DNA from: Nitrospirota bacterium
Lineage (GTDB): Bacteria > Nitrospirota > Thermodesulfovibrionia > Thermodesulfovibrionales > JdFR-88
Direction: 5' to 3'
Assembly: GCA_021789555.1 (NCBI GenBank)
Contig: JAJYJK010000026.1
Span: forward strand, 1-32,433
DNA: 32,433 nt
In this document: in pieces, positions 1,253 to 32,017 of the stretch
Position numbering within the stretch: the stretch's first letter is position 1
Layout: each line of letters opens with the position of its first letter
Translations under genes and position numbers: made by a program
The notes under the pieces: generated by a model
Seen by the model: only the letters and a program-made list of their open reading frames with translations
Databases searched by the model: none
Told to the model about the DNA's origin: nothing

Positions 1253-1912
1253 CTAATACTCGTAGACCCCCGAGAGCTTCGAGCGCTCCCCCGTCGGACT
1301 TACCGAAAGCGCCTCGATTGTATAGATATAGGGTATGGCGCGCACCGTGCCCTGGCCGTTGGCCTGCACAACGCCCGTCTTCACAAGCCCCGAGGCCTGC
1401 GCCGTGTTTCCGGGGTCCGTATCGACTATCTTCGCATAGACCTGAAACTGCCCGAGGGTGGCGGTCATGTCCCAGGACGTATTGACAGTCGGGTCTATGG
1501 TCGATGCCTTGCTGCAGTTGCCTGCAGGCCAGGCGGCGGTAAGTTGCGTTAGTTTCGCGGTCAGGCAATTGGCGGCGAGATTGGGATTCGTGGCGAAATT
1601 GATTGTGTTATTAGTAAAGTTCACGGCCCCCTGTTGTTCAATGAACTGCCTGTTCAAATCCACTGCTCCCACGGCGGCCTGGACCGCGGTCGTATACCTC
1701 TGCGCCATCCCCGACAGTTCGGCGCCGGATGTCACCATGTAGATGAGCCCGGACATTATTATAAGCGCGGCGGCCGCCAGGACTATCACGATTACGAGCG
1801 TCATGCCGCTTTCGTTTCCTAAATGGGCCTCCCTCACCCTCCGCTTCGCTCCCCCCTCTCCCATCGGGAGAGGGGACAAGGATGAGGGTGTCATTCCAAA
1901 ATCAGGTCTCAT
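1253..1912 (-). CDS. pilX: PilX-like type IV pilus minor pilin
   Basis: A 219-residue prepilin-like protein. After a 36-residue leader, the motif SG|MTLVIVIVLAAAALIIMSG gives a class III cleavage site followed by the hydrophobic N-terminal helix. The residue at mature position 5 is Ile rather than the usual Glu. PilX and GspK-type tip subunits often lack Glu5, which supports a tip-complex role. The start ATG at 1912 overlaps the pilW stop (ATGA), so translation is probably coupled. The leader is unusually long because a type A palindrome (1831-1890) encodes most of it (SPLPMGEGGAKRRVRE). No good ATG, GTG or TTG with a Shine-Dalgarno sequence lies between the repeat and the cleavage site. The family name rests on the N-terminus, the size and gene order. 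Confidence 0.82.
   Translation of the reverse strand: MRPDFGMTPSSLSPLPMGEGGAKRRVREAHLGNESGMTLVIVIVLAAAALIIMSGLIYMVTSGAELSGMAQRYTTAVQAAVGAVDLNRQFIEQQGAVNFTNNTINFATNPNLAANCLTAKLTQLTAAWPAGNCSKASTIDPTVNTSWDMTATLGQFQVYAKIVDTDPGNTAQASGLVKTGVVQANGQGTVRAIPYIYTIEALSVSPTGERSKLSGVYEY
1831..1890. repeat. Type A palindrome inside the pilX leader-coding segment
   Basis: Outer arms CCCTCACCCT and GATGAGGGTG enclose a side hairpin (CCGCTTCGCTCC) and a CCCTCTCCC/GGGAGAGGG core. In the minus frame it is read as part of the prepilin leader, directly before the cleavage motif. It is the mirror orientation of the copy at 9495-9550, where the side hairpin follows the core. Confidence 0.85.
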
Positions 1913-3186
1913 TGCGCCCCCAGGTTAAACGGCTTCTCCACGATTGTATATACCTTCCACCTGTATCCATTCTGCTGGCTGGCGTTAAGATTGTATGGGA
2001 CACAAATCGGGGGGTTGGCCACTGGCGGAGTCGCGCAATCTCCCAGATAGAAGGTTCCCGGCGCGGTATATGACGGCTCTCTCTGGCCCTCCTGGGCCAA
2101 TATGTAGACCCTGACCTCTTTTATGTCCTGCTGCACCAGGGCGGCGGTGTTATCATTAAAATAGATAGTATTCGCGTCGGCCACCGCGCCGCTTGCCCGC
2201 AGGAAGTTCACCTTCATGTACGCCACGCAGTCCATGAGCGGATAATAGTTGAACGAGCCGTTTGCCTGGTTCACGACCGCCTTCACAAGCTCCCCCGTAT
2301 TAGACGCGCATCTCGCGGGCACCGTGGGCTTCCCCGCGCCGAAGACCGGGACGCTATTGTTGGCTATGAAGTAGTCCGCCCTGTTAAAGGGCATCTGCGG
2401 GCCTGTCGCCGAAGCATCAGCGGCGCTGGCCACGTCGTAAATCATATAGGTCTGGGAAGGGTCAGTAGGGGCGAAAAGCGCGAGGTTGTGAAGGTTAAAC
2501 TGGGTTGAAAACGCGCCTCCCTGGGTCTGAAGGGTCGGCACGGGCTGGTTCTGCGCATTGGGCGGAAAGGAAAGGACGACGACCCAGTCCGTGGCGGCCG
2601 GGGTTTCAGCTTGAACGGGGTTATTGTTTAAATCCAACCATGCCATCGTCGTGGGGCCCGCCCGCAGCGTCGTGGATTTGCCCGCCCCGAGGTCGTTTAC
2701 CGCGACCGATATCGATTTTATGGAGAGATAGTCCTCGCCGAAGATGCCCGCGCCGGGCGTGACTATCGCCCTCGGCGGATTGCCGGGGGCATCGTTGGCA
2801 TTCCGGGCATCGGTGTCGATCGTGACATTAGGACAACTGCCCGCCACATATTCATTATAGCCCGCCCCGTTCAGATCCCAGGGCAGGCCGTAGCCCGCGC
2901 TCTGGATGTCCTTCACCATATATTGAAGCCCCAGGGCGCTGCCGATGTCGGTCTGCGACACCCTGCTTTCCTGCTTGAACTGCGCGAAAAGCTGCGCGAA
3001 GAGCGTGGTCGTGCCGGCCAGGACAAAGACCGAGATGGCAAGCGCTATCAAAAGCTCAATCAGGGTGAACCCGTCTTCCTTGCCGATAGAGTCCGCCATG
3101 CCCGTGAAGACGGGCATCCCTCTTGATTTCAAATCGAATCCTCGCGATTTTTTCAGCAACCTGTTTGTATTGTGTCTCCTGCTCAT
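1909..3186 (-). CDS. pilW: PilW-like type IV pilus minor pilin
   Basis: A 425-residue protein with a prepilin N-terminus. The leader of about 39 residues ends in KEDG|FTLIELLIALAISVFVLAG, with Phe1 and Glu5 as expected. After the helix comes QESRVSQTDIGSALGLQYMVKDIQSAGYG, a stretch typical of PilW proteins. The large C-terminal domain carries Cys pairs and is probably exported. I chose the ATG at 3186 because it overlaps the pilV stop as ATGA. A longer open frame to 3249 would overlap pilV by 67 nt. The leader includes SRGMPVFTGMADSI, which is the translation of a separate REP-like palindrome (3098-3117). The pilX gene follows with an ATGA overlap. Confidence 0.87.
   Translation of the reverse strand: MSRRHNTNRLLKKSRGFDLKSRGMPVFTGMADSIGKEDGFTLIELLIALAISVFVLAGTTTLFAQLFAQFKQESRVSQTDIGSALGLQYMVKDIQSAGYGLPWDLNGAGYNEYVAGSCPNVTIDTDARNANDAPGNPPRAIVTPGAGIFGEDYLSIKSISVAVNDLGAGKSTTLRAGPTTMAWLDLNNNPVQAETPAATDWVVVLSFPPNAQNQPVPTLQTQGGAFSTQFNLHNLALFAPTDPSQTYMIYDVASAADASATGPQMPFNRADYFIANNSVPVFGAGKPTVPARCASNTGELVKAVVNQANGSFNYYPLMDCVAYMKVNFLRASGAVADANTIYFNDNTAALVQQDIKEVRVYILAQEGQREPSYTAPGTFYLGDCATPPVANPPICVPYNLNASQQNGYRWKVYTIVEKPFNLGAQ
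3098..3117. repeat. Type D REP-like palindrome inside the pilW leader-coding segment
   Basis: ATGCCCGTGAAGACGGGCAT is an 8-bp inverted repeat around GAAG. Flanking GTCCGCC and CCCTCTTGATTT resemble the edges of common REP-type repeats whose translations look like MPVKTGIP or MPVFTGM. It is unrelated in sequence to the GGGAGAGGG and AAAGGGG repeats, yet lies in the same relative place, just before a prepilin cleavage site. Confidence 0.7.
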
Positions 3187-3653
3187 TGGTTTGAGATCAC
3201 CGATTGTATAGTATACGTGTACGGTACCGGCTGTCCTTTCCAGTTCCATGACACACTGACCGTAACCTGATCGTCGCTCGCGTCGAGCGCCGTCACGGCG
3301 TTTGTCACGGTGAAGGGCTCCGTGAAATTCCGGAAATTCCTGCTTATAACAACCGTACCCTGCGCGCCCGGAGGACTCGCTCCAATCAGGTTTGGCAGAT
3401 TGGCAAATGGTATATTCCTCGCCCCGCTCATGGACTCGGCCGCAATCCTCACGGCCTCGTTTCTGAGCATGTTCCTGGTGTTGGAGTCGACGGCCAGAAG
3501 GGCGGTGGAGAGCACGGCCATAAAGATGAAGAGGAAGAGGACCATGGAGATGAGGACCTCCACCAGGGTGTCGCCCTTACGGTTTAATCTTTTGACTTCC
3601 CCTCCCTTGAGGGGAGGGGATGAAGGGGAGGGTGTAATCAGCCTTTTTATCAT
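3183..3653 (-). CDS. pilV: PilV-like type IV pilus minor pilin
   Basis: A 156-residue protein. The 27-residue leader ends in NRKG|DTLVEVLISMVLFLFIFMAVLSTALLA, giving a prepilin peptidase site with Asp at mature position 1 and Glu at position 5. The DTLVEVLI pattern is typical of PilV-type minor pilins. It is followed by SNTRNMLRNEAVRIAAESM. The ATG at 3653 is the only usual start codon before the helix. The purine-rich GGGAGAGGGTG just upstream belongs to a palindrome (3663-3700) and may double as a weak ribosome-binding region. Leader residues TPSPSSPPLKGGEVK are the translation of another palindrome (3599-3633). It is followed by pilW with an ATGA overlap. Confidence 0.85.
   Translation of the reverse strand: MIKRLITPSPSSPPLKGGEVKRLNRKGDTLVEVLISMVLFLFIFMAVLSTALLAVDSNTRNMLRNEAVRIAAESMSGARNIPFANLPNLIGASPPGAQGTVVISRNFRNFTEPFTVTNAVTALDASDDQVTVSVSWNWKGQPVPYTYTIQSVISNQ
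3599..3633. repeat. Type A-like palindrome inside the pilV leader-coding segment
   Basis: Arms CCCCTCCC and GGGGAGGGG surround TTGA, with a trailing ATGAAGGGGAGGGTG arm. It encodes PSPSSPPLKGGE in the pilV leader. It is a variant in which the core is CCCCTCCC rather than CCCTCTCCC. Confidence 0.8.
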
Positions 3654-3662
3654 TTATTAGGC

Positions 3663-3700
3663 ACCCTCTCCCAACCCTCTCCCTTAAGGGAGAGGGTTTT
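3663..3700. repeat. Type A palindrome between fimT and pilV
   Basis: The core hairpin at 3675-3696 (arms CCCTCTCCCTT/AAGGGAGAGGG) is preceded by ACCCTCTCCCAA and followed by TTTT on the plus strand. It lies in the 81-nt gap between the fimT stop and the pilV start. It could stall or stabilise the operon mRNA and supplies the purine-rich stretch upstream of the pilV ATG. Confidence 0.8.
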
Positions 3701-3734
3701 GAAACCCACACAAAAACCTGACGACCCCAACCTT

Positions 3735-4337
3735 CTACTTGATGACACAGTTGCCTCCCGGCTGCCAGTTGCCCATCTCCATGTTCGTCGGCGTCCAGGA
3801 GATGCAATCGAGCAGCGCCTGATCGGTGTTAACCGCCGGGGTTATGTCTATCGTTCCGGTTGTCGCTCCAGCGGAGTCCGTCATGATGCCGTCCGGGGAG
3901 ATGTTCAACGGTGGCGTCCCGCTTACGCTCAGCGTCATGCCCAGGAGATTAGGGGTCCTGTTAATGAACTTGGTGTCCCCAGCATCCTGTGTGTTGTCGC
4001 CGTCAGGGGCGGGGTTTGTATCCACCCATACGACATAAGAATTACTTGCACCGAATACCACGTAGACCCATCTTTTCTGCGCCACGGCCTGCTCTCTGGC
4101 GTTCATCAGATCGGCATAGATCTGTTTGATTTCGGATTCGGCCTCAGACTGGCCCCGCTGTCCGCTAAACATGCTGAACCCTATGACGGCGAGGATTGCC
4201 AGTATGGCGAGGACGACGAGCAGCTCGATGAGGGTAAAGCCCCCGCGTTCTACAAATAGTGCCCCCCTCTTTTTAAAAGAGGGGTTAGGGGAGATTTTTA
4301 AATTCACAATAATTCCATGCTTAATCAAATCTGCCAA
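3735..4337 (-). CDS. fimT: FimT/GspH-like type IV pilus minor pilin
   Basis: A 200-residue pseudopilin. The leader ends in VERGG|FTLIELLVVLAILAILAVIGFSMFSG, a canonical cleavage site with Phe1 and Glu5. It is followed by AESEIKQIYADLMNAREQAVAQKRWVYVVFG, which matches the GspH/FimT family pattern of helix then short beta strands. Two Cys near the C-terminus (LLDCISWT and GGNCVIK) may form the C-terminal disulfide common in pilins. The start is uncertain: TTG at 4337 has only a weak AAGGGA nearby, and GTG at 4307 would shorten the leader to 23 residues. Either way the leader contains ISPNPSFKKRGALF, the translation of a palindrome at 4262-4297. It is the first pilin gene after pilY1. Confidence 0.85.
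   Translation of the reverse strand: MADLIKHGIIVNLKISPNPSFKKRGALFVERGGFTLIELLVVLAILAILAVIGFSMFSGQRGQSEAESEIKQIYADLMNAREQAVAQKRWVYVVFGASNSYVVWVDTNPAPDGDNTQDAGDTKFINRTPNLLGMTLSVSGTPPLNISPDGIMTDSAGATTGTIDITPAVNTDQALLDCISWTPTNMEMGNWQPGGNCVIK
4262..4297. repeat. Type B palindrome inside the fimT leader-coding segment
   Basis: Arms CCCCTCTTTT and AAAAGAGGGG (4264-4284), then the GTTAGGGGAGATTT arm. It belongs to the CCCCTTT...AAAGGGG family also seen at 4354-4417, 9274-9320, 11571-11653 and 19211-19288. Confidence 0.8.
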
Positions 4338-4353
4338 ATCCCTTATTCATTCC

Positions 4354-4417
4354 AAATCCCCCCTCACCCCCCTTTGCTAAAGGGGGCAGCAAATTATGAA
4401 GTCCCTTTACTAAAGGG
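4354..4417. repeat. Two type B palindromes between pilY1 and fimT
   Basis: The first unit begins AAATCCCCCCTCACCCC and has a core hairpin CCCCCTTTGCTAAAGGGGG. The second is the simple hairpin CCCTTTACTAAAGGG at 4403-4417. Together they fill most of the 92-nt gap between the pilY1 stop and the fimT start. They may form an mRNA barrier between the very long pilY1 and the pilin genes (inference). Confidence 0.8.
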
Positions 4418-4429
4418 AGGTGGACCACC

Positions 4430-7400
4430 CTATTTTTCCTCCCTTATGTAAAGCATCTTTTTAACCGGCGGGGGCGAGGTGAAGAGCGCCAGCCCCCCGG
4501 CCGTGGGCGGCAGGCCCTCGAACGCGGTCGTGCTCCTGCCGCCGTTATAGTTGAGGGAGGTCGACAGGTTTATCTTCTGGATGCTGCCGGTCGACACCTG
4601 CAGCAGGGCCGTCCCCTTGCCAGACAGCGGCGTCAACGACAGGGAGGCGGCATTATCATAATAGACGGCCCAGAGGAAGCTCTTGCCGCCTATGCCGCAT
4701 TGCTCGTCATAGGGCTTCATGGTGGTGAAATAGACTGCGCCGTTCGTTGCGGTCTCCGGGTCCGTGAGCACCCTTTCCGCGCCATAGGTGTCCGTTACGT
4801 TTGTGATAATGTTCTTGGCCGGGTCCCCGACGTACTCGGGGTATGTGAAATTGCCGGGGCAGGAACCGCCCGGGGGCGCCGTGTCAAGCGTTATATACCA
4901 GCCGTACTGCGAGGTGGAGATGGTCGCGCCGGCAGTGGAGGTGAGGGGCACCGGCGCCAGCTTGCTCGTGCCGCTGAAAGGCAGAGGATAGCTATTGCCG
5001 TCATCGGTCGTATTGGTTGTTATGCATTTCAGGTCGAAAAGGCTTGTACTGCTTGCATAGCAGGGGTCCGTCATCCCCACCAGATAATTCTGGTTGCACA
5101 GGGCGTCCACGACCGGCGAGGAAGTGTAGTAGGAATAATAATCCCTGCCCGTCCCGAAATATAGCCAGAGCTTGTTTGTGTTATTGTTCTGGAGCCGGGC
5201 CACGCCCGCCGTCACCGGCCCGATGCCGTCTATCAACTGCTGGTAGCTCCATTTGGTGGGGTCGGGATTGCCGCTGCCGTCAACGGCCTCCAGCCCGGTG
5301 GCCGTGTCCAGCGTAAGTATCCTTCCCACCCCGCCCTGGGCCCATGTCTTGCTCCCATCGTCCCTGACGTACCCGCCGTACAGGGCCTCGTCCTGGTAGT
5401 CCCCGTTGGAGTCGTTCGTGGCGTTAAAGAGGTCGCCCGAAAAGGCGTTGACCATGTTTGGATAATTGATGCTCGTATCAATCGTCTTTAACAGGGTGCC
5501 TGTGGCCAGGTCCAGTACAAAATATTTAAGGCTCTGGTCCGAGTATCCTTTGAACTGATTGTCCGTGGTGTCCATCGGGCCGGTCGGGCCGGAGCCGAAG
5601 ACGACGAACCAGCGGCCGTTATCGGAGTCGCCGGTGGCGTCGCCCTTTGCGCTGACGCGGACGATGGCCGGCCCGCTCGTGGTAAAGCCCAGATTCGGGT
5701 TGCTGAATTCCCAGAGAAGTTTCGGATTGTTCTCGTCCGTGACGTCCAGGGCGAAATAGGAGGAATAGCCCACGGAGTTGCCGCTGACCGTAGCGGGGGT
5801 GGTCACGCAGTTATTGCAATTGCTTGCGTTGGTGGACGAGCAGCAGTTTGCGCTTGGAGGGGCGCTCGCCCCGCCCAGGCGCATCCCGCCTATGAGTATC
5901 GTCCTCCAGGTGCTGCCGTTGGGTAATTTGGGGCAGTCCCAGTAATCGGAGCCGTTGCCGCATCCCCCTATACTGGCGTCGAAGACATAAGGGGTGAGGT
6001 CCACGGTATAGATATGACAATAGCCGGGGCCCACCCCGGCCTGATTGGTGGCGATCCCCGAGATATATTGAAGGTAGGGCAGGGCGTTTTCGGGTATGAA
6101 GGCCCACCTCTCCGCCCCGAGGTTAGACCCTGTAAGCTGCGCCTTCAAATTAGGATTGCCGGGGTCGTTCTTAACAATCAGCTTGCCAAGATTGAAGGCG
6201 TGCAGCATCCCGTCGTTGGCGCCCGCGTACACGGTGCCCCTGCTTAAGTAACCGGTTGCATTCGTTATGAAGGCCCCGTAACTGATGTCATTATAGACCG
6301 TGTCGTAATGGTCGAGCGGCATCCAGGAGACGATTCTCGGGGTGGAATTGAGGATGTCCCCGAGCTTCCAGACGTTGGAGGTCTCGGCGCCGTTTACTAT
6401 GATGCTGACCGTCCTCGTCCTGTAGTCGTCTATGCCGTCGTTGTCAGGGTCGTTATTGTAACTGGTGCTGCCTGACCCGTTTGTGATGCCGTCATCCCCT
6501 TCAGTCCACTTAATAACGCTGTCGGTCTGGTCAATCCCGTTGACGATGGGCGCATTAAGATAGGGTTTCAGGGATAGGTCATTGGCCGTGTTGAAAGAGA
6601 TCAGGGTCTTCCCATCGGTTGTCGTATAAATCTTCCGGCTGGACGGGGCCGCGCTCCAAAGCTGCTGGCCCGCCTCCCAGAGGTTTAAAAGGTTTTCAAA
6701 GTAGACGGGCGAGTCTGCTGTTTCGCCGCCCGCGGAGCCGTCGGGGTTAGACAGGAACTTGTCGGCCATGGTGCGGCCCTTGTCCTGGTCGAAATAAAAA
6801 CTGGCGATATCGTCCTTTGTGAGGGTCAGGTAATCGTCCTGGTTGGTGTCTTCCAGTATGTCGCTATAGATGAAATAGGGGTCCACGTAATACCAGAGGT
6901 CGTGCATTGCGCCGGACCAGTCTATTACGTCGCTGCCGAAGGCGCGCCTGGGATAGAAGACGGCCTGGACGAGGTTTGCGCCGCTGCCTTCGCCGGAGGC
7001 CAGCACCGACGCCGCCGTGCCGGAAGACGCCCTCTTGAGCATGGATGAAAAGGCGAGGGCCAGTTGGTTTTCGAGGTCCCCGCCCTGCGAGGCCTCGAAA
7101 TATGTGTCCGGCTGGCCCGTGCCGCTCGAGCTCCATTCGGATATGTCATTCGCGTCGGCCCCGCCGTCGGGCTTGTAGTCGCCGTTTTTATCGTCATACC
7201 CGCCGTTTATCGACGCGTATTTTAAAAGCGTGGAGCCGTGCCCGAAGGCAAAGACTGTATAGAGCGTTATGCTGCGTGGAGAGCCCTTGTACGTATTTGT
7301 GAGGTCGGGGCGGATATCGTCCGCCGCGTTGGCTATGCCGTTTGGCGAAAGGGTGCCGTCGTGCATCCAGAGGGCGACAGACTCCAAACCGGCGGCGGCA

Positions 7401-8926
7401 TTGCCCGCCGGGCAGGACTGAAACGACGGTTCAGCCGGGTAGAGGACCGTATTGGCTGGGCATACGCCGCCGGGGTCGGTGACGGGATCGCTGCCGTCCG
7501 AGCACCGGGCCGGACAACTCCCCGAAAGGCTGCCGTCGCTCAGGGAACCGGTGTTGGTGCATGCAAAGGGCGATTTGCCGTTCGCGTAACCGCCCGCGGG
7601 AGTAGCTCCCGGACTGGTGTTCAGCAGTTGGGAAGGCAGGGAGCCGTCCTCGCACGGCTCGCCGTCCGTAATCAGCAGGATGAAGTTCTTGGAGCAAGTG
7701 GGAAAATTAGGCTGCCCGGCGGTGCCGTAATTGTAGGGGTCGTAATTTTTGCTGGACGACGGGTAGTAGGAACTGTTGCCGCCGGAGTAGTTTGACGGCC
7801 CTGGCCCGCCTGGGAACTGGTTTGCGCCGAAGTTCGGAGACACGCGGGGCACCTGGCCGAAATAGCCCGCCGACTCGAAAAGCGCCTCGGCCAGTGGGGT
7901 ATTGGCGGAGGGGATCGCCCCCCTTATTTTTTCCGTGAGTGACTGGAGGCTCTGCCCACTAACCGGAACGATTATATTGGCCCCGTCGCCGGTGCCGGTG
8001 CAGCCGCTGTAGCCGTCAGCGCCGGGCTGGCTGCAGTAGGAGCCGTAAGTCGCCAGGCCAACCCTGGCCCTGCCCGCCACCTCGTCCTGAAGGACCCCAT
8101 GCACCGGCGGGATGACGCTGACTGTGACGTTGAAACTGCCGCCAATAGCCCCGGACTTGGGGCAATACTTATAAGAACTGGAATTGTAGATGAAGGAGGA
8201 ATTACACGCCGAGTTATTGTAGACACTGAAAGTGCCGCCGGCATCGTTGTTACCGCTGCTGTCGCAGTCGTTATGCACTGTGGGGTCGCACGTCTGGAAC
8301 TCTATCTGGCCGTTAAGGCTCTGTCCGTTTATGGTGGTGGGTATATAGTCCTGGTAGTTTGCCACCTGCTTCCAGTCTCCCCTGCCGAAATAATCGGGCT
8401 GTATCCCCTCAAGTCTGACATTGCCGGACTTGTTTGGGTCGTTAGCGCAGGCCCCGCTTTCCCCGCCGGCGCAGAGCCCGCCAGTCAGGGCCTGTTTTAC
8501 GATGTCCATTCTCCTCATCGTGAGCCAGTTGAGGAAGTTGCCATTCCAGTCATTGGCGGAATCGGGGTTGGTAATGCTGCTTCCTATGGTGGGGGTAGTG
8601 GTATTGGCGACACTGAACTCGTTGCTTGAGTACTGATACCAGGCGTTCGGATCGAAATAGCCGTAGTAAGTCTGGGTGGGGTCGAACCCGATGCATGGCT
8701 TGTCAGCTCCGCCGGCACAGTCGTTGCTGCTGTCGGTGTAGGCGTAATTCCACATGCTGCCCGAGTTGTCCAGAAGTATCAGGATGTTTGGTTGTACATT
8801 TTGAACGACGTACGAGGGGACCTGGCAGTAATCGGCGTTCTGCATGGCAAGCGCTCCCTGAAAGAAGGCAAAACCAAATAAAAAAGCCGGCAAAAAAACG
8901 GCAATTGACAAAATATGGCGTTTCAT
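4430..8926 (-). CDS. pilY1: PilY1-like pilus tip adhesin with VWA domain and C-terminal propeller
   Basis: About 1,498 residues from ATG 8926, which has GAGGG five bases upstream. An alternative ATG at 8938 overlaps the previous stop as ATGA. A signal peptide (MKRHILSIAVFLPAFLFG to about ALA) is followed by a von Willebrand A-like region with MIDAS motif DNSGS (about residues 57-61 counted from 8938) and the strand NFILLITDGEP near 420. Acidic Ca2+-loop candidates are DKNGDYKPDGG, DTNQDDYLTLTKDD near 697 (EF-hand-like) and NDPDNDGIDDY near 832. From about 862 the sequence GDILNSTPRIV and VYAGANDGMLHAFN opens the PilC/PilY1 beta-propeller that continues to the C-terminus. PilY1 proteins cap type IV pili with the PilV/W/X/FimT complex and mediate adhesion, surface sensing and Ca2+-dependent retraction control. 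The minor pilin genes follow directly, as in classical operons. Confidence 0.92.
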   Translation of the reverse strand: MKRHILSIAVFLPAFLFGFAFFQGALAMQNADYCQVPSYVVQNVQPNILILLDNSGSMWNYAYTDSSNDCAGGADKPCIGFDPTQTYYGYFDPNAWYQYSSNEFSVANTTTPTIGSSITNPDSANDWNGNFLNWLTMRRMDIVKQALTGGLCAGGESGACANDPNKSGNVRLEGIQPDYFGRGDWKQVANYQDYIPTTINGQSLNGQIEFQTCDPTVHNDCDSSGNNDAGGTFSVYNNSACNSSFIYNSSSYKYCPKSGAIGGSFNVTVSVIPPVHGVLQDEVAGRARVGLATYGSYCSQPGADGYSGCTGTGDGANIIVPVSGQSLQSLTEKIRGAIPSANTPLAEALFESAGYFGQVPRVSPNFGANQFPGGPGPSNYSGGNSSYYPSSSKNYDPYNYGTAGQPNFPTCSKNFILLITDGEPCEDGSLPSQLLNTSPGATPAGGYANGKSPFACTNTGSLSDGSLSGSCPARCSDGSDPVTDPGGVCPANTVLYPAEPSFQSCPAGNAAAGLESVALWMHDGTLSPNGIANAADDIRPDLTNTYKGSPRSITLYTVFAFGHGSTLLKYASINGGYDDKNGDYKPDGGADANDISEWSSSGTGQPDTYFEASQGGDLENQLALAFSSMLKRASSGTAASVLASGEGSGANLVQAVFYPRRAFGSDVIDWSGAMHDLWYYVDPYFIYSDILEDTNQDDYLTLTKDDIASFYFDQDKGRTMADKFLSNPDGSAGGETADSPVYFENLLNLWEAGQQLWSAAPSSRKIYTTTDGKTLISFNTANDLSLKPYLNAPIVNGIDQTDSVIKWTEGDDGITNGSGSTSYNNDPDNDGIDDYRTRTVSIIVNGAETSNVWKLGDILNSTPRIVSWMPLDHYDTVYNDISYGAFITNATGYLSRGTVYAGANDGMLHAFNLGKLIVKNDPGNPNLKAQLTGSNLGAERWAFIPENALPYLQYISGIATNQAGVGPGYCHIYTVDLTPYVFDASIGGCGNGSDYWDCPKLPNGSTWRTILIGGMRLGGASAPPSANCCSSTNASNCNNCVTTPATVSGNSVGYSSYFALDVTDENNPKLLWEFSNPNLGFTTSGPAIVRVSAKGDATGDSDNGRWFVVFGSGPTGPMDTTDNQFKGYSDQSLKYFVLDLATGTLLKTIDTSINYPNMVNAFSGDLFNATNDSNGDYQDEALYGGYVRDDGSKTWAQGGVGRILTLDTATGLEAVDGSGNPDPTKWSYQQLIDGIGPVTAGVARLQNNNTNKLWLYFGTGRDYYSYYTSSPVVDALCNQNYLVGMTDPCYASSTSLFDLKCITTNTTDDGNSYPLPFSGTSKLAPVPLTSTAGATISTSQYGWYITLDTAPPGGSCPGNFTYPEYVGDPAKNIITNVTDTYGAERVLTDPETATNGAVYFTTMKPYDEQCGIGGKSFLWAVYYDNAASLSLTPLSGKGTALLQVSTGSIQKINLSTSLNYNGGRSTTAFEGLPPTAGGLALFTSPPPVKKMLYIREEK

Positions 8927-8934
8927 CGTCTCCC

Positions 8935-9261
8935 TCATTGTATTATGGGGCGCGCGAATACCATGATGTTCTTAAGTACGCCATGGTAGAAGTAGAGTTT
9001 TACAAACCTGCCCCGTATAAACTGGTTTGGTGACGGTTTTCCGGGCACGCCGGTAAAATCGTAATACCTGCCATTGACCCGTATCGCACGGGAAGTGACA
9101 TCCTCTATATGGCCCGCGACCATCGTGACGCCGTCCCACGGCCCCTGTTTGATTGTGGCGCTGCGGGCCGCCCTGTTGGCGGCAAAAACAGAGGGGGATA
9201 AAAAGAACAGGAAAATGGCTGCAAAACAAACTGCGACTGGAAAAAACCTGCCGGTCTTCAA
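8935..9261 (-). CDS. Small secreted protein upstream of pilY1
   Basis: A 108-residue protein starting at TTG 9261, which has GGGAGG five bases upstream. The longer open frame to 9309 would translate a palindrome (MPPCQGGKQGG) and is unlikely. The sequence from the TTG gives a clean signal peptide (KTGRFFPVAVCFAAIFLFFLSPSVFA|ANRA). The mature part is about 80 residues of beta-rich sequence (TMVAGHIEDVTSRAIRVNGRYYDF, FIRGRFVKLYFYHGVLKNI). This looks like a small beta-barrel fold of the kind seen in short periplasmic proteins, but I cannot name the family. Its stop overlaps the pilY1 frame (ATGA at 8935-8938). It is the first gene after the sigma-54-type promoter, so it probably belongs to the pilus operon and may be an accessory factor (inference). 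Confidence 0.8.
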   Translation of the reverse strand: MKTGRFFPVAVCFAAIFLFFLSPSVFAANRAARSATIKQGPWDGVTMVAGHIEDVTSRAIRVNGRYYDFTGVPGKPSPNQFIRGRFVKLYFYHGVLKNIMVFARPIIQ

Positions 9262-9494: not shown

Positions 9495-9550
9495 CCCTCA
9501 CCCCGACCCTCTCCCATTGGAAGAGGGAGGAGCGAAGCGGAGGGTGAGGG
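9495..9550. repeat. Type A palindrome just upstream of the histidine kinase
   Basis: Outer arms CCCTCACCC and GGGTGAGGG enclose a CCCTCTCCC/AAGAGGG core (one mismatch) and the side hairpin GGAGCGAAGCGGAG. It ends four bases before the ATG at 9555, so its purine-rich GGAGGGTGAGGG tail is the only possible ribosome-binding sequence for that start. Confidence 0.82.
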
Positions 9551-9554
9551 CGAT

Positions 9555-11168
9555 ATGATAAAATATTGCGGAATGGTTAAATTCAGCAAATCCCGCCACT
9601 CCCTGGCCGGAAAACTCATCCTCTCCGTGGGAGTCCTGATGATCTTCTGCAGCGCCGTCTTCGGTTTCCTCTTCATAGATTTCGAACGGCAGGTGCTCGA
9701 AAAAAACCTCGTCAACTATGCCGCCGCCACGGCCGACCTCATAGACCGCGGCATACAGTACGGGATGCTCACGGGCAGGAGGGACCTGATCCAGCAGAAC
9801 GTCAAGGTGATCGGGATGGGCAAGACCATCCGTTTCATAAAGGTCTACGGTCCGGACGGGAAGGTCAGATATTCCTCGAAGGAGCCGGGCGCGGCGGAAG
9901 GGCCCCCGCCGCCCATCGATTTCGGCAACGTGGATGCCCTGACGACGACCCACATGATAGTGGGCAGGGGCGCAAAAAAGACCCTGCTCTATATCACACC
10001 CATCTTGAACAAGCCCCAGTGCTACACGGCCGTCTGTCATTTTCACACGGAGGGCAGGAACGTGCTGGCCGTCCTGGAGGCGGGCTTCTACACAAACGAC
10101 GTGGACCGCGTCGTGCACGACAACATGATTGCGACCGTGCTGTCGGGCGGGCTTTTCGTCCTTGTGATCTCCGTCTTCCTCTGCATCATCCTCTACAAGC
10201 TGGTCTCAAAGCCGGTGGCGCTGCTGGAGGCCGGGATGAAGCGGATCGCCAAGGGCGACCTGGATGCCCCCATAGACATAAACACCAGGGACGAGATGGG
10301 CCTCCTTGCGCGGACATTCAATTCCATGACGCAGGACCTGAAACGCTACCGCCTCAATATGGAGAACTGGACGCACTCCCTGGAGGATGAAGTCAAGAGA
10401 AAGACGCAGGAGATACTGAAGACCCAGGAGGAACTGGTCAACACGGAAAAGCTGGCCTCCCTGGGACGGATGGCGGCCGGCATCGCCCATGAATTAAACA
10501 GCCCGCTTACGGGGATAGTCACTTTCGCCCACCTGCTTAAAGGACGCCTGCCCGCCGCAAACACGGAGGAGCACGAGGACCTCCAGGTCGTGATAGACCA
10601 GGCCGAAAGGTGTTCGAAAATCATCAAGGGGCTCCTGGGTTTCTCGCGCGGGGCCGGCTTCGAGATGGTGGAGATAAATCTAAACAGCCTCGTCGAGGCC
10701 GTCATCGCCATGATAAGCCATCAAACGCGCTTTTACAACATAAAATTCGACCTCCGGCTTGCCGCCGGCCTCCCCCCGGTCCTCGCGGACCCGAATCAAA
10801 TCCAACAGGTATTTTTAAATATGCTCATGAACGCCTCCGACGCCATGAACCAGAAGGGCGCAATCACGATAGCCACAAGATATCTGCCGGCCGAAGACGG
10901 CAGGCGGATCGTCGAGACGGAGTTTACGGACACGGGGCCGGGCATCGTCGAGCCCGACGTCGGCAAGATATTCGAGCCCTTCTACACGACCAAGCCGGTC
11001 GGCAAGGGCACCGGCCTGGGGCTTTCGGTAAGCTACGGGATCATCAAAAAGCACGGGGGCGATATACTGGTGAAGAGCGAGCCGGGCCGGGGCGCAACTT
11101 TTCTCATAAGACTTCCTTCAGGAGGGAAAGGAGGCAGGGATGTGGATGAAAAGCGTTCTGGCAATTGA
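9555..11168 (+). CDS. Sensor histidine kinase with CX4CH motif in its periplasmic sensor
   Basis: A 537-residue kinase. TM1 lies at about residues 15-36. The extracytoplasmic sensor of about 150 residues contains C156-YTAV-C161-H162-F-H164, a CX4CH motif. TM2 lies near 195-218, followed by a HAMP domain (SKPVALLEAGMKRIAKGDLDAPI) and a short coiled coil. The dimerisation/phosphoacceptor helix carries H312 in GIAHELNSPLTG. The ATPase has its N-box (QQVFLNMLMNASDAM), DTGPGI, FEPFYTTKPVGKGTGLGLSV and C-terminal GRGATF. This is the NtrB-like class of kinase. The Cys/His cluster suggests c-type heme or metal binding and redox or gas sensing, as in other environmental kinases with CXXCH sensors. The start could also be ATG 9573. 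The gene overlaps the next receiver by 29 nt. Confidence 0.92.
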   Translation: MIKYCGMVKFSKSRHSLAGKLILSVGVLMIFCSAVFGFLFIDFERQVLEKNLVNYAAATADLIDRGIQYGMLTGRRDLIQQNVKVIGMGKTIRFIKVYGPDGKVRYSSKEPGAAEGPPPPIDFGNVDALTTTHMIVGRGAKKTLLYITPILNKPQCYTAVCHFHTEGRNVLAVLEAGFYTNDVDRVVHDNMIATVLSGGLFVLVISVFLCIILYKLVSKPVALLEAGMKRIAKGDLDAPIDINTRDEMGLLARTFNSMTQDLKRYRLNMENWTHSLEDEVKRKTQEILKTQEELVNTEKLASLGRMAAGIAHELNSPLTGIVTFAHLLKGRLPAANTEEHEDLQVVIDQAERCSKIIKGLLGFSRGAGFEMVEINLNSLVEAVIAMISHQTRFYNIKFDLRLAAGLPPVLADPNQIQQVFLNMLMNASDAMNQKGAITIATRYLPAEDGRRIVETEFTDTGPGIVEPDVGKIFEPFYTTKPVGKGTGLGLSVSYGIIKKHGGDILVKSEPGRGATFLIRLPSGGKGGRDVDEKRSGN

Positions 11169-11715: not shown

Positions 11716-13221
11716 ATGACGAAAATCCTTGTCCTGGACGATGAGGAGATAATTCAGACCTCCGCCAGGCGCGTACTGGAGCCGGCGGGTTATTGGGTAA
11801 AGACAACCGCCTCGCCCAAAGAGGCCCTGGAACTCACCCGCACCTTCTCTATCGACCTCGTCCTGTCGGATTTAAAAATGCCCGAGATGGACGGCCTCGA
11901 GTTCCTGAAGAGGATCAAGGAAATCTCGCCCGCGACCGAGGTCATAATAATAACGGGTTTCGGTACGGTGCGGGGCGCCGTCGAGGCCCTCCGGTACGGG
12001 GCATTCGACTACATAGAAAAACCGCTAAACCCGGACGACCTGCTGCGGACCGTTGGCAGGTGCATCGAACGGAAAAAGCTGCTTGCCGAAAACGTCAGGC
12101 TGAAGCGCGAAGTCCGCGCCCTCTACAGCCTTGAAAACATCATCGGCGCCTCCTCCGCCATGCAAAAAGTCTTCGACCTTATCGCCACGGTGGCCCCCGT
12201 AGACTCCACGGTGCTCATAACGGGGGATTCCGGCACCGGCAAGGAGCTCGTCTCCAGGGCCATTCATTTCAACAGCCCCAGGAGGGAAGGCCCGTTCGTC
12301 GTCATAGACTGCGTGACCATACCGGAGACCCTCATGGAGAGCGAGCTTTTCGGCCATGTAAAGGGCTCCTTCACCGGCGCCGTCACGACCGGGAAGGGCC
12401 TTATAGACCTGGCCGAAGGGGGCACGCTTTTTTTCGACGAGATAGGAAACCTTCCCCTGACACTGCAGGCGAAGCTCCTAAGGGTCCTTCAGGAGAAAGA
12501 GTACCGGCCCGTCGGAGCCAGGCATACGCAAAAGGCGGACGTAAGGTTCATCGCCGCGACAAACCGGGACCTCCTCGAACTCGTGGTCAAAGGCGTCTTC
12601 CGCGAGGATTTCTACTACCGCCTGAACGTCTTCCCGATAAAGCTGCCGCCGCTTCGCGAGCGCCGGGAGGACATCGCCGCGCTGGCGCACCATTTCCTCA
12701 AAAAATATTCGGCCCGGACGGGAAAAGACGTGGAATTCATATCGGCGGAGGCGATGCGCCTGCTTGCGGCCCACGATTGGCCCGGAAACGTGCGGGAGCT
12801 TGAAAACATCATCCACCGGGCCGTTATACTGGCCAGGTCGAAGACCGTGGGGCAAAAAGAGATAATGCTGGAGGAGACGCCCCTCCCCTCACCCCAACCC
12901 TCTCCCAGAGGGAGAGGGAGGAGTCCCGCCCCCGGCGGGACGAAGAATGAGGGCGATTTTCGGGCAGAGGCAACAGGGGCGATGGAAACAGACGGTCCAG
13001 TGAGGGAAACAGACGGGGCGCCGAGGACATTGAAGGAGCTTCGGCAGATGAAAAAGAGGCTGCGCGAGGAGTCCGCCCACCGGCTGGAGCGCGCCTTCGT
13101 CCTGGATGCGCTCCGGCGCGCCGAATGGAATGTCTCCCAGGCGGCCCGCGAGACGGGCATGGAGAGGACCAACCTGCACGCGCTCATCAAAAAATACGGC
13201 TTGAAGAGGGAAGAGGGGTAA
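11716..13221 (+). CDS. NtrC-type sigma-54-dependent response regulator
   Basis: A 501-residue activator. The receiver domain at 1-120 has D8/D9, phosphoacceptor D52 and K102 in IEKPL. The AAA+ domain has Walker A GDSGTGKE (170-177), the sigma-54 contact loop GSFTGA (217-222; Ser replaces the usual Ala of GAFTGA), Walker B GGTLFFDE ending at D241-E242, and the arginine region FREDFYYRLNVFPI. The C-terminal Fis-type helix-turn-helix is NVSQAARETGMERTNLHALI. It should activate RpoN promoters after phosphorylation. Residues 391-413 in the linker to the DNA-binding domain are the translation of a type A palindrome. The pilus operon promoter at 9349-9362 is the only clear -24/-12 site I see nearby and is a candidate target. 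No Shine-Dalgarno sequence stands out before the ATG. Confidence 0.94.
   Translation: MTKILVLDDEEIIQTSARRVLEPAGYWVKTTASPKEALELTRTFSIDLVLSDLKMPEMDGLEFLKRIKEISPATEVIIITGFGTVRGAVEALRYGAFDYIEKPLNPDDLLRTVGRCIERKKLLAENVRLKREVRALYSLENIIGASSAMQKVFDLIATVAPVDSTVLITGDSGTGKELVSRAIHFNSPRREGPFVVIDCVTIPETLMESELFGHVKGSFTGAVTTGKGLIDLAEGGTLFFDEIGNLPLTLQAKLLRVLQEKEYRPVGARHTQKADVRFIAATNRDLLELVVKGVFREDFYYRLNVFPIKLPPLRERREDIAALAHHFLKKYSARTGKDVEFISAEAMRLLAAHDWPGNVRELENIIHRAVILARSKTVGQKEIMLEETPLPSPQPSPRGRGRSPAPGGTKNEGDFRAEATGAMETDGPVRETDGAPRTLKELRQMKKRLREESAHRLERAFVLDALRRAEWNVSQAARETGMERTNLHALIKKYGLKREEG
12886..12954. repeat. Type A palindrome inserted in frame within the sigma-54 activator gene
   Basis: A full element: outer arms CCCCTCACCCC and GAATGAGGGCG, core CCCTCTCCCAGAGGGAGAGGG-like hairpin, and a side hairpin built on GTCCCGCC/GGCGGGAC. 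At 69 bp (23 codons) it keeps the reading frame and encodes LPSPQPSPRGRGRSPAPGG in the linker. It shows that these repeats can be tolerated inside a protein. Confidence 0.88.
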
Positions 13222-29312: not shown

Positions 29313-29419
29313 CCCCGTGGACAAAAATTTGCCACGGGGTCAAGCGAGCGAATATGGTGAAAAAATTCCTTACATTAGATTCCCTGCGGCTTGGGGACCA
29401 GTCCCCTTGACGCAGGGAA
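29313..29419. other. Structured gap between the aminotransferase and LysR genes
   Basis: The 328-nt gap 29220-29547 has no gene. It contains a hairpin CCCCGTGG/CCACGGGG (29313-29339) and a two-part hairpin at 29380-29419. In the latter, outer arms TTCCCTGCG/CGCAGGGAA enclose inner arms GGGGAC/GTCCCC with a symmetric 4x4 internal loop. A third pairing AAGATC/GATCTT follows at about 29418-29448. They may terminate the LysR transcript or form a leader for the aminotransferase mRNA. I recognise no known RNA family. Confidence 0.45.
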
Positions 29420-29547
29420 GATCAACCGCGGCGTTGCCAGTCGATCTTTTATATCTGGCCAGTGAGAGTTGCGGAAATCGACATCCCGGCATCGGTTTGT
29501 CTGCGAGAGGATGATGCTGCTTCCAGGCAGCGCCAATGTCCCGGGTT

Positions 29548-31356: not shown

Positions 31357-31767
31357 TTAGGGCAAAATTATGAATGGCGTTTTCCCGCGGATGCGGTAAG
31401 CATTAAAGCCCCGCTTATCAAGCGTGAGTATGTCCGGAACATTCATCTCTTCCGCGAGGGCCACAAGTGTGGCATCGGCAAAGTCCATCGGGATGTCTTT
31501 ATATTTACCCATGAGCGCCGCCGCCCTTGCCAGGCTTTCCGCTGATTGAGGTATGAGGGAGGTCCCGCCCTTCAATATGAATTCAATGCAGACCCGCTGT
31601 GCTTTGGTTGAGTGAGATAAAAGATATAAGGCCTCTGTAAGCACGGGTTCTGTCGTGAGAATGTTGCCTCTGAAATCTTTAAAAAAAACTACACAGCTTT
31701 CGTGGTTTCTTTCGCTTTTATCGAGGAGCGCAACGAGGACCCCGGTATCAAGCAGGACATTACGCAA
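31357..31767 (-). CDS. vapC: PIN-domain toxin (VapC-like)
   Basis: A 136-residue PIN-domain ribonuclease starting at TTG 31767. The acidic active-site residues are D7 in LLDTGVL, a Glu in TTEPVLTEALYLL, and Asp residues in MDFADATLVALAEE and LTLDKRGF. The tail NAYRIRGKTPFIILP is usual for the family. VapC-type toxins cleave tRNA or rRNA. It overlaps its partner antitoxin by 8 nt. AGGAAA about 12 bases upstream is a weak ribosome-binding site, so translation is probably coupled to the antitoxin. Confidence 0.9.
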   Translation of the reverse strand: MRNVLLDTGVLVALLDKSERNHESCVVFFKDFRGNILTTEPVLTEALYLLSHSTKAQRVCIEFILKGGTSLIPQSAESLARAAALMGKYKDIPMDFADATLVALAEEMNVPDILTLDKRGFNAYRIRGKTPFIILP

Positions 31768-32017
31768 GGCGCCTGAATTTCCTTAGCAGATGTTCGCGGT
31801 GCGACTCGCCAAGATCGGAAATACCGCTGGAAAAACTTCCGAGCAGCCCTCTCACCTTGTCATATGGCCTGCTTTCTTCTTCCGCTCCCGCCTCCTTAAG
31901 AAACCTCTCCAAAGCCATCCTCACGACGTCGGCCCGTTTAAGGCGAAGTTTCCTCGCGAGTATTGAGAGCCCTTTTTCCAGATCATCCGGCAGCCTGACC
32001 GTCAATTGCGAGTTCAT
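31760..32017 (-). CDS. vapB: Ribbon-helix-helix antitoxin (VapB-like)
   Basis: An 85-residue protein. The N-terminal SQLTVRLPDDLEKGLSILARKLRLKRADVVRMALERFLKE is a ribbon-helix-helix DNA-binding domain. The C-terminal part RPYDKVRGLLGSFSSGISDLGESHREHLLRKFRRLA is the segment that would wrap the toxin. The ATG has GGGAGGAAAGG upstream. It precedes the PIN-domain toxin on the same strand, the usual antitoxin-toxin order, and would repress its own promoter at 32048-32076. Confidence 0.9.
   Translation of the reverse strand: MNSQLTVRLPDDLEKGLSILARKLRLKRADVVRMALERFLKEAGAEEESRPYDKVRGLLGSFSSGISDLGESHREHLLRKFRRLA

Follow-up and report, generated by a model that had tools for sequence, protein, structure and literature searches.

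Dispersed palindromic repeats before the prepilin cleavage sites in a minor-pilin operon of a Nitrospirota bacterium

Each of the four minor-pilin genes considered here carries a palindromic repeat just before the cleavage site of the encoded prepilin. The feature is real, and it is best read as adding to the known in-frame palindromic insertions, here in a leader that is cleaved off. The explanation we favor, with a probability of roughly 0.7, is that repeats found at gene boundaries are tolerated in the prepilin leader because the leader is cleaved off. In this proposal, short dispersed palindromic repeats, mostly of the intrastrand-triplex type, would pile up at gene boundaries in this lineage. 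In a tightly packed minor-pilin operon the dispensable boundary sequence would be the prepilin leader, which is removed by the prepilin peptidase before assembly. Copies landing there in an open frame would be kept, either lengthening the leader or supplying a new start codon, and the mature pilins would be unchanged.

The operon and the repeats in its leaders

The window, that is, the whole stretch of 32,433 nucleotides that was analysed, is one contig of a 2.85-Mb genome in 108 contigs. The operon lies on the minus strand, and the first gene considered is pilY1-like (4430-8938), assigned by synteny and by homology in relatives; in the Pfam profile search it has a weak PilY1 propeller match under the cut-off. 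Then come a fimT/GspH-like prepilin gene (3735-4337), with N_methyl and GspH matches above the cut-off, a pilV-like prepilin gene (3183-3653), a pilW-like prepilin gene (1909-3186), whose PilW domain match is under the cut-off, and a pilX-like gene (1253-1912). The start codon of pilW, ATG 3186, overlaps the stop codon of pilV (ATGA) and is common to relatives; ATG 1912 of pilX overlaps the stop codon of pilW in the same way. The cleavage/methylation motif (PF07963, N_methyl) scores above the cut-off in fimT and pilW and just under it in pilV, while pilX has no Pfam match, N_methyl included. Synteny supports all four assignments, joined by homology for pilV and pilX, and the long leaders are presumably cleaved, that of pilX included. 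Beside pilX, also on the minus strand, is the gene of an Ig-domain protein (160-1194). The contig starts exactly with an A palindrome (1-22), suggesting an assembly break at a repeat, and near the other end two small adjoining genes (31357-32017) resemble, as judged by eye, a toxin-antitoxin pair of the PIN and ribbon-helix-helix types.

The fimT leader holds a triplex-type repeat of type B (4264-4296, palindrome part 4264-4284), and the pilV leader an A-like triplex-type repeat (3598-3632, palindrome part 3598-3620). In pilW we find palindrome D at 3097-3119 (3098-3117 in the palindrome search), which reads GGATGCCCGTCTTCACGGGCATG on the minus strand and contains ATGs 3117 and 3099. The pilX leader has an A2 repeat unit (1829-1892) with a triplex-type core at 1854-1888 and a palindrome at 1853-1875, and this unit contains GTG 1837. 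Two additional triplex-type copies, which the sequence-only reading had placed between fimT and pilV and between pilY1 and fimT, are indeed present, an A1 repeat at 3664-3696 and a type C repeat at 4355-4387. The leader lengths given in that reading, 33, 27, 39 and 36 residues for fimT, pilV, pilW and pilX, are reproduced with the starts TTG 4337, ATG 3653, ATG 3186 and ATG 1912; GTG 4307 is another possible start of fimT, with a leader of 23 residues.

In fimT and pilV there is no ATG, GTG or TTG between the repeat and the cleavage site, and the repeats must therefore be translated. In pilW and pilX the repeat itself contains alternative starts. The palindrome before the cleavage site thus holds for all four genes, as had been claimed, and its translation is forced in fimT and pilV; for all four, translation within the leader is likely but unproven because of these alternative starts. 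The ATGA overlap of pilW is also found in three relatives (G001, G002 and G011), and that of pilX, in frame, also in three (G002, G003 and G008). Such overlaps with the upstream gene, common to several relatives, favor the long pilW and pilX leaders, short of proof.

Nature and distribution of the repeats

Our triplex-architecture scan detects a hairpin with a purine arm followed by a mirror-image purine third strand. The pilX, pilV and fimT repeats match this architecture with 0-2 third-strand mismatches, and the pilW palindrome was not picked up. By their sequence architecture, the former three appear to be one structural class, that of a published intrastrand triplex motif, with the pilW palindrome unrelated to them, and the three repeat types distinguished by the sequence-only reading are more aptly counted as two. 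The A, A-like, B and C copies are all found by the scan, with 13 hits in the window and 77 in all stretches scanned, compared to 0 in block-shuffled sequence. Strict copies of the A palindrome number 85 in this genome (2.85 Mb), 19 in G002 and 5 in G001, and the reversed control has no match in any of the three. The pilW palindrome resembles 23-bp copies elsewhere in the genome (GGATTCCCGCCTTCGCGGGAATG), the differences being paired changes. That it is part of a longer dispersed unit was considered and rejected, as its flanks are unrepeated and the DNA search gave no strong second copy. At 29340-29425 lies a copy of repeat E (ATTCCTTACATTAGATTCCCTGC), a different dispersed repeat, which at no more than one mismatch is matched 13 times in this genome and 7 times in G001.

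To see where the copies sit, about 233 kb of this genome, in stretches picked for their A copies, were classified with a home-made hexamer gene model that overlooked pilV; the numbers are therefore rough. Of the strict A copies, 42/50 are intergenic, 4 are inside genes and 4 are at possible N-terminal extensions, pilX among them; 88% of this DNA is coding. For the triplex-type copies, 56/71 are intergenic. The gene of a sigma-54 activator (11716-13221) has a triplex-type A2 repeat in frame at 12886-12918, where the AAA lid is linked to the Fis-type HTH domain, and this interdomain linker is another permissive place for an in-frame copy. Just upstream of a histidine kinase gene (starting at 9555), an A2 repeat at 9495-9554 seems to provide the SD-like sequence of that gene (GGAGGGTGAGGG).

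It should be mentioned that the exact B copies are restricted to this contig and that C-type copies are concentrated there, for which local expansion and a mis-binned contig are both possible. The latter was not adopted: the tetranucleotide use of parts of the window correlates at 0.80-0.95 with other stretches of the same genome, and the A1 copies of the window share flanks and loops with those on other contigs, even if the B and C concentration still leaves room for mis-binning.

Comparison with relatives and recurrence elsewhere

The order of the operon is conserved in the family. In G002 the pilX leader (MRSRFLRLRPVRNESG) has 16 residues versus 36 here and the pilW leader (MIQGYAIRKAGG) has 12 versus 39, both repeat-free. 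The leader alignment with orthologs, proposed in the sequence-only reading as a check, gave the result expected for insertions: the leaders of the nearest relatives lack these repeats, and in the alignment of G002 with the window the gaps span them. The short repeat-free leaders of close relatives point to lineage-specific in-frame insertions, deduced here from relatives of about 50-70% protein identity, too distant for clean insertion ends. No palindrome with a stem of at least 9 was reported in the pilin leaders of seven family relatives. A looser triplex scan gave one triplex-type copy, in the pilW leader of G011, with no start codon after it, and pilV takes its 5' end from the unrelated repeat E in G001 and G008. 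Repeat sequence is held by 7/32 leaders in the eight family genomes. In G001, direct repeats GGGCGCAATG enclose about 90 nt between pilW and pilX (locus L046), and this stretch is followed by a new start of pilX.

Within the four pilin genes of the eight genomes, the triplex-type copies are found in the leaders in 4/4 cases (1,866 nt) and never in the mature parts (19,770 nt), which gives a binomial p = 5.5e-5, with leader lengths entered by hand and 3/4 copies coming from this one genome, hence not a wide sample. The control counts (85 strict A copies versus 0 for the reversed pattern, 77 triplex architectures versus 0 after shuffling) likewise go beyond chance.

A single scan of about 85,000 genomes looked for the palindrome at a distance of 14-44 nt ahead of a GFTL-type cleavage motif and yielded 31 matches, mostly in prepilin genes. 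In 30/31 an open frame joins the repeat to the motif; a start codon follows the repeat in 15, and 12 are labelled forced. Three (L114, L115 and L118) do not look like pilins. Ten of the proteins were tested for N_methyl, and eight of the forced type are above the cut-off (L105, L109, L112, L113, L116, L117, L124 and L126, of which L117 and L124 look like one lineage); L102 is under the cut-off, and L100 is above it and is not of the forced type. The matches span Nitrospirota, Planctomycetota and Pseudomonadota (alpha-, beta- and gammaproteobacteria). The loci hold 19 further palindrome copies in 236 kb, which indicates that these genomes carry the palindrome as a repeat. By a rough estimate about one match is expected by chance; run without a matched control pattern, the scan shows recurrence, not enrichment. 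Among the papers listed by literature searches on repeats in prepilin leaders none dealt with the subject, and a search on Geobacter PilA isoforms found nothing.

Alternative explanations

We now consider where translation starts and what else could account for the positions of the repeats. In pilW and pilX, translation could begin inside the repeat, at ATG 3099 and GTG 1837, with the repeat supplying the start codon or the ribosome-binding sequence, such that only fimT and pilV translate the whole repeat. These starts would yield ordinary leaders of 10 and 11 residues (MADSIGKEDG and MREAHLGNESG), GTG 1837 has a strong SD-like sequence upstream (−8.9 kcal/mol), and in two relatives, G001 and G008, pilV does owe its 5' end to repeat E. 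However, ATG 3099 has no SD-like sequence, that of GTG 1837 belongs to the repeat and stands at a distance of 12 nt, and the ATGA-coupled starts 3186 and 1912 are common to several relatives, the latter with an SD-like sequence of its own (−8.4). The internal starts are also inapplicable to fimT and pilV. We regard them as a tentative possibility for pilW and pilX, one that can be compatible with tolerance in a cleaved leader, and the confidences in the two are thus not exclusive. Tolerance would, on the other hand, have no part if the repeats fell at random at gene boundaries and the pilins were hit through a repeat-rich contig and a tight operon, the cleaved leader playing no special role. 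The window, which makes up 1.1% of the genome, does hold 6/85 strict A copies and 3/3 exact B copies, the other prepilins of this genome are without repeats, and a triplex-type copy lies within 100 nt of the start at 7/94 tight junctions in the stretches scanned. Yet the other tight junctions of the window have no triplex-type copy, and forced in-frame N-terminal copies occur only at pilins, the other genes with a copy at the 5' end keeping an available start after it, as judged by a crude gene model in stretches chosen for repeats. Purely random placement is for these reasons rather unlikely.

The sequence-only reading had also suggested that mRNA hairpins tune the translation of each pilin, and one can ask whether the repeats have been selected for such regulation. 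The leader RNAs of pilX (z −3.0) and pilV (z −2.3) fold better than their dinucleotide shuffles, and pairing is possible between the repeat in the pilV leader and the A1 repeat that lies upstream of the pilV start. Those of fimT (z −0.4) and pilW (z −0.7) fold no better than shuffles, though, the relatives are without these repeats, and the four repeats are unlike in type, in position and in how far they lie from the start; moreover, two of the four start codons could sit inside the repeat, and the triplex motif of E. coli gave no sign of a regulatory role (Holder et al., PMC4666352). No positive evidence for the tuning was obtained, and since the repeats are not conserved in orthologs a shared regulatory device is disfavored; we consider it highly improbable. 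The same low standing is given to the broader idea that prepilin leaders are a general landing site retaining hairpin repeats across phyla and that the repeats here were co-opted for setting how much each minor pilin is translated relative to the others.

Tolerance in a cleaved leader goes back in part to the proposal that the leader is the one permissive position in the operon. In its favor, the leaders of relatives are variable, mostly short and repeat-free, other repeats occur in the leaders of other relatives, and the arrangement recurs in several phyla. The proposal is nevertheless incomplete. This genome encodes ten other prepilins, all with ordinary leaders free of repeats, which means that permissiveness alone is insufficient; with these and the repeat-rich window in mind, local repeat abundance and tight operon packing are part of the explanation, and the preference for gene boundaries contributes as well.

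Comparison with known systems

The closest likeness in architecture is to the intrastrand triplex motif TM_ECO, which occurs in many copies per genome in many bacteria, mostly in intergenic DNA (Holder et al. 2015, PMC4666352). Its copies, which include CCCTCTCCCTTGAGGGAGAGGGTTAGGGTGAGGGT, were reported as intergenic in 23/23 cases in E. coli K-12 (PMC4666352). Judged by sequence architecture, the repeats here appear alike in having a hairpin, CCCTCTCCC...GGGAGAGGG in the motif, and then a mirror-image purine strand. The mainly intergenic location is also shared (56/71 triplex-type copies here), with the leader copies as the exception. The differences are that copies here are translated inside genes and that the arms of the B and C copies are of another sequence.

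REP elements and RAYT systems are likewise short dispersed palindromes, mainly extragenic (PMC3733652, PMC2817692), and in both respects the repeats here are similar. The pilV and pilX units have no GTAG/CGTC tag of the REP type in the adjoining 10 nt, and the REP-like tetramers near fimT (CTAC) and pilW (GACG) may be due to chance. Spread driven by a RAYT appears unlikely, the genome having one partial Y1_Tnp match only, adjoining a masked stretch.

In-frame insertion in genes is known from the Rickettsia palindromic elements (RPE), units of about 150 bp that occur in unrelated genes and are kept in the protein (review PMC10969869). The likeness lies in dispersed palindromic elements in frame in genes, here forced in fimT and pilV and absent from the orthologs of relatives. 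The units here differ in being about 30-60 bp long and mostly in segments expected to be cleaved; they are probably unrelated in sequence. In-frame palindromic insertions in Rickettsia and triplex-type repeats in intergenic DNA were thus known before. Repeats kept in cleaved pilin leaders, in this lineage and in scattered phyla, indicate a site inside genes where they would come at little expected cost. Annotators should be aware that a long prepilin leader may stem from a repeat, and the leader repeats offer a natural test of the leader length and sequence that the prepilin peptidase tolerates.
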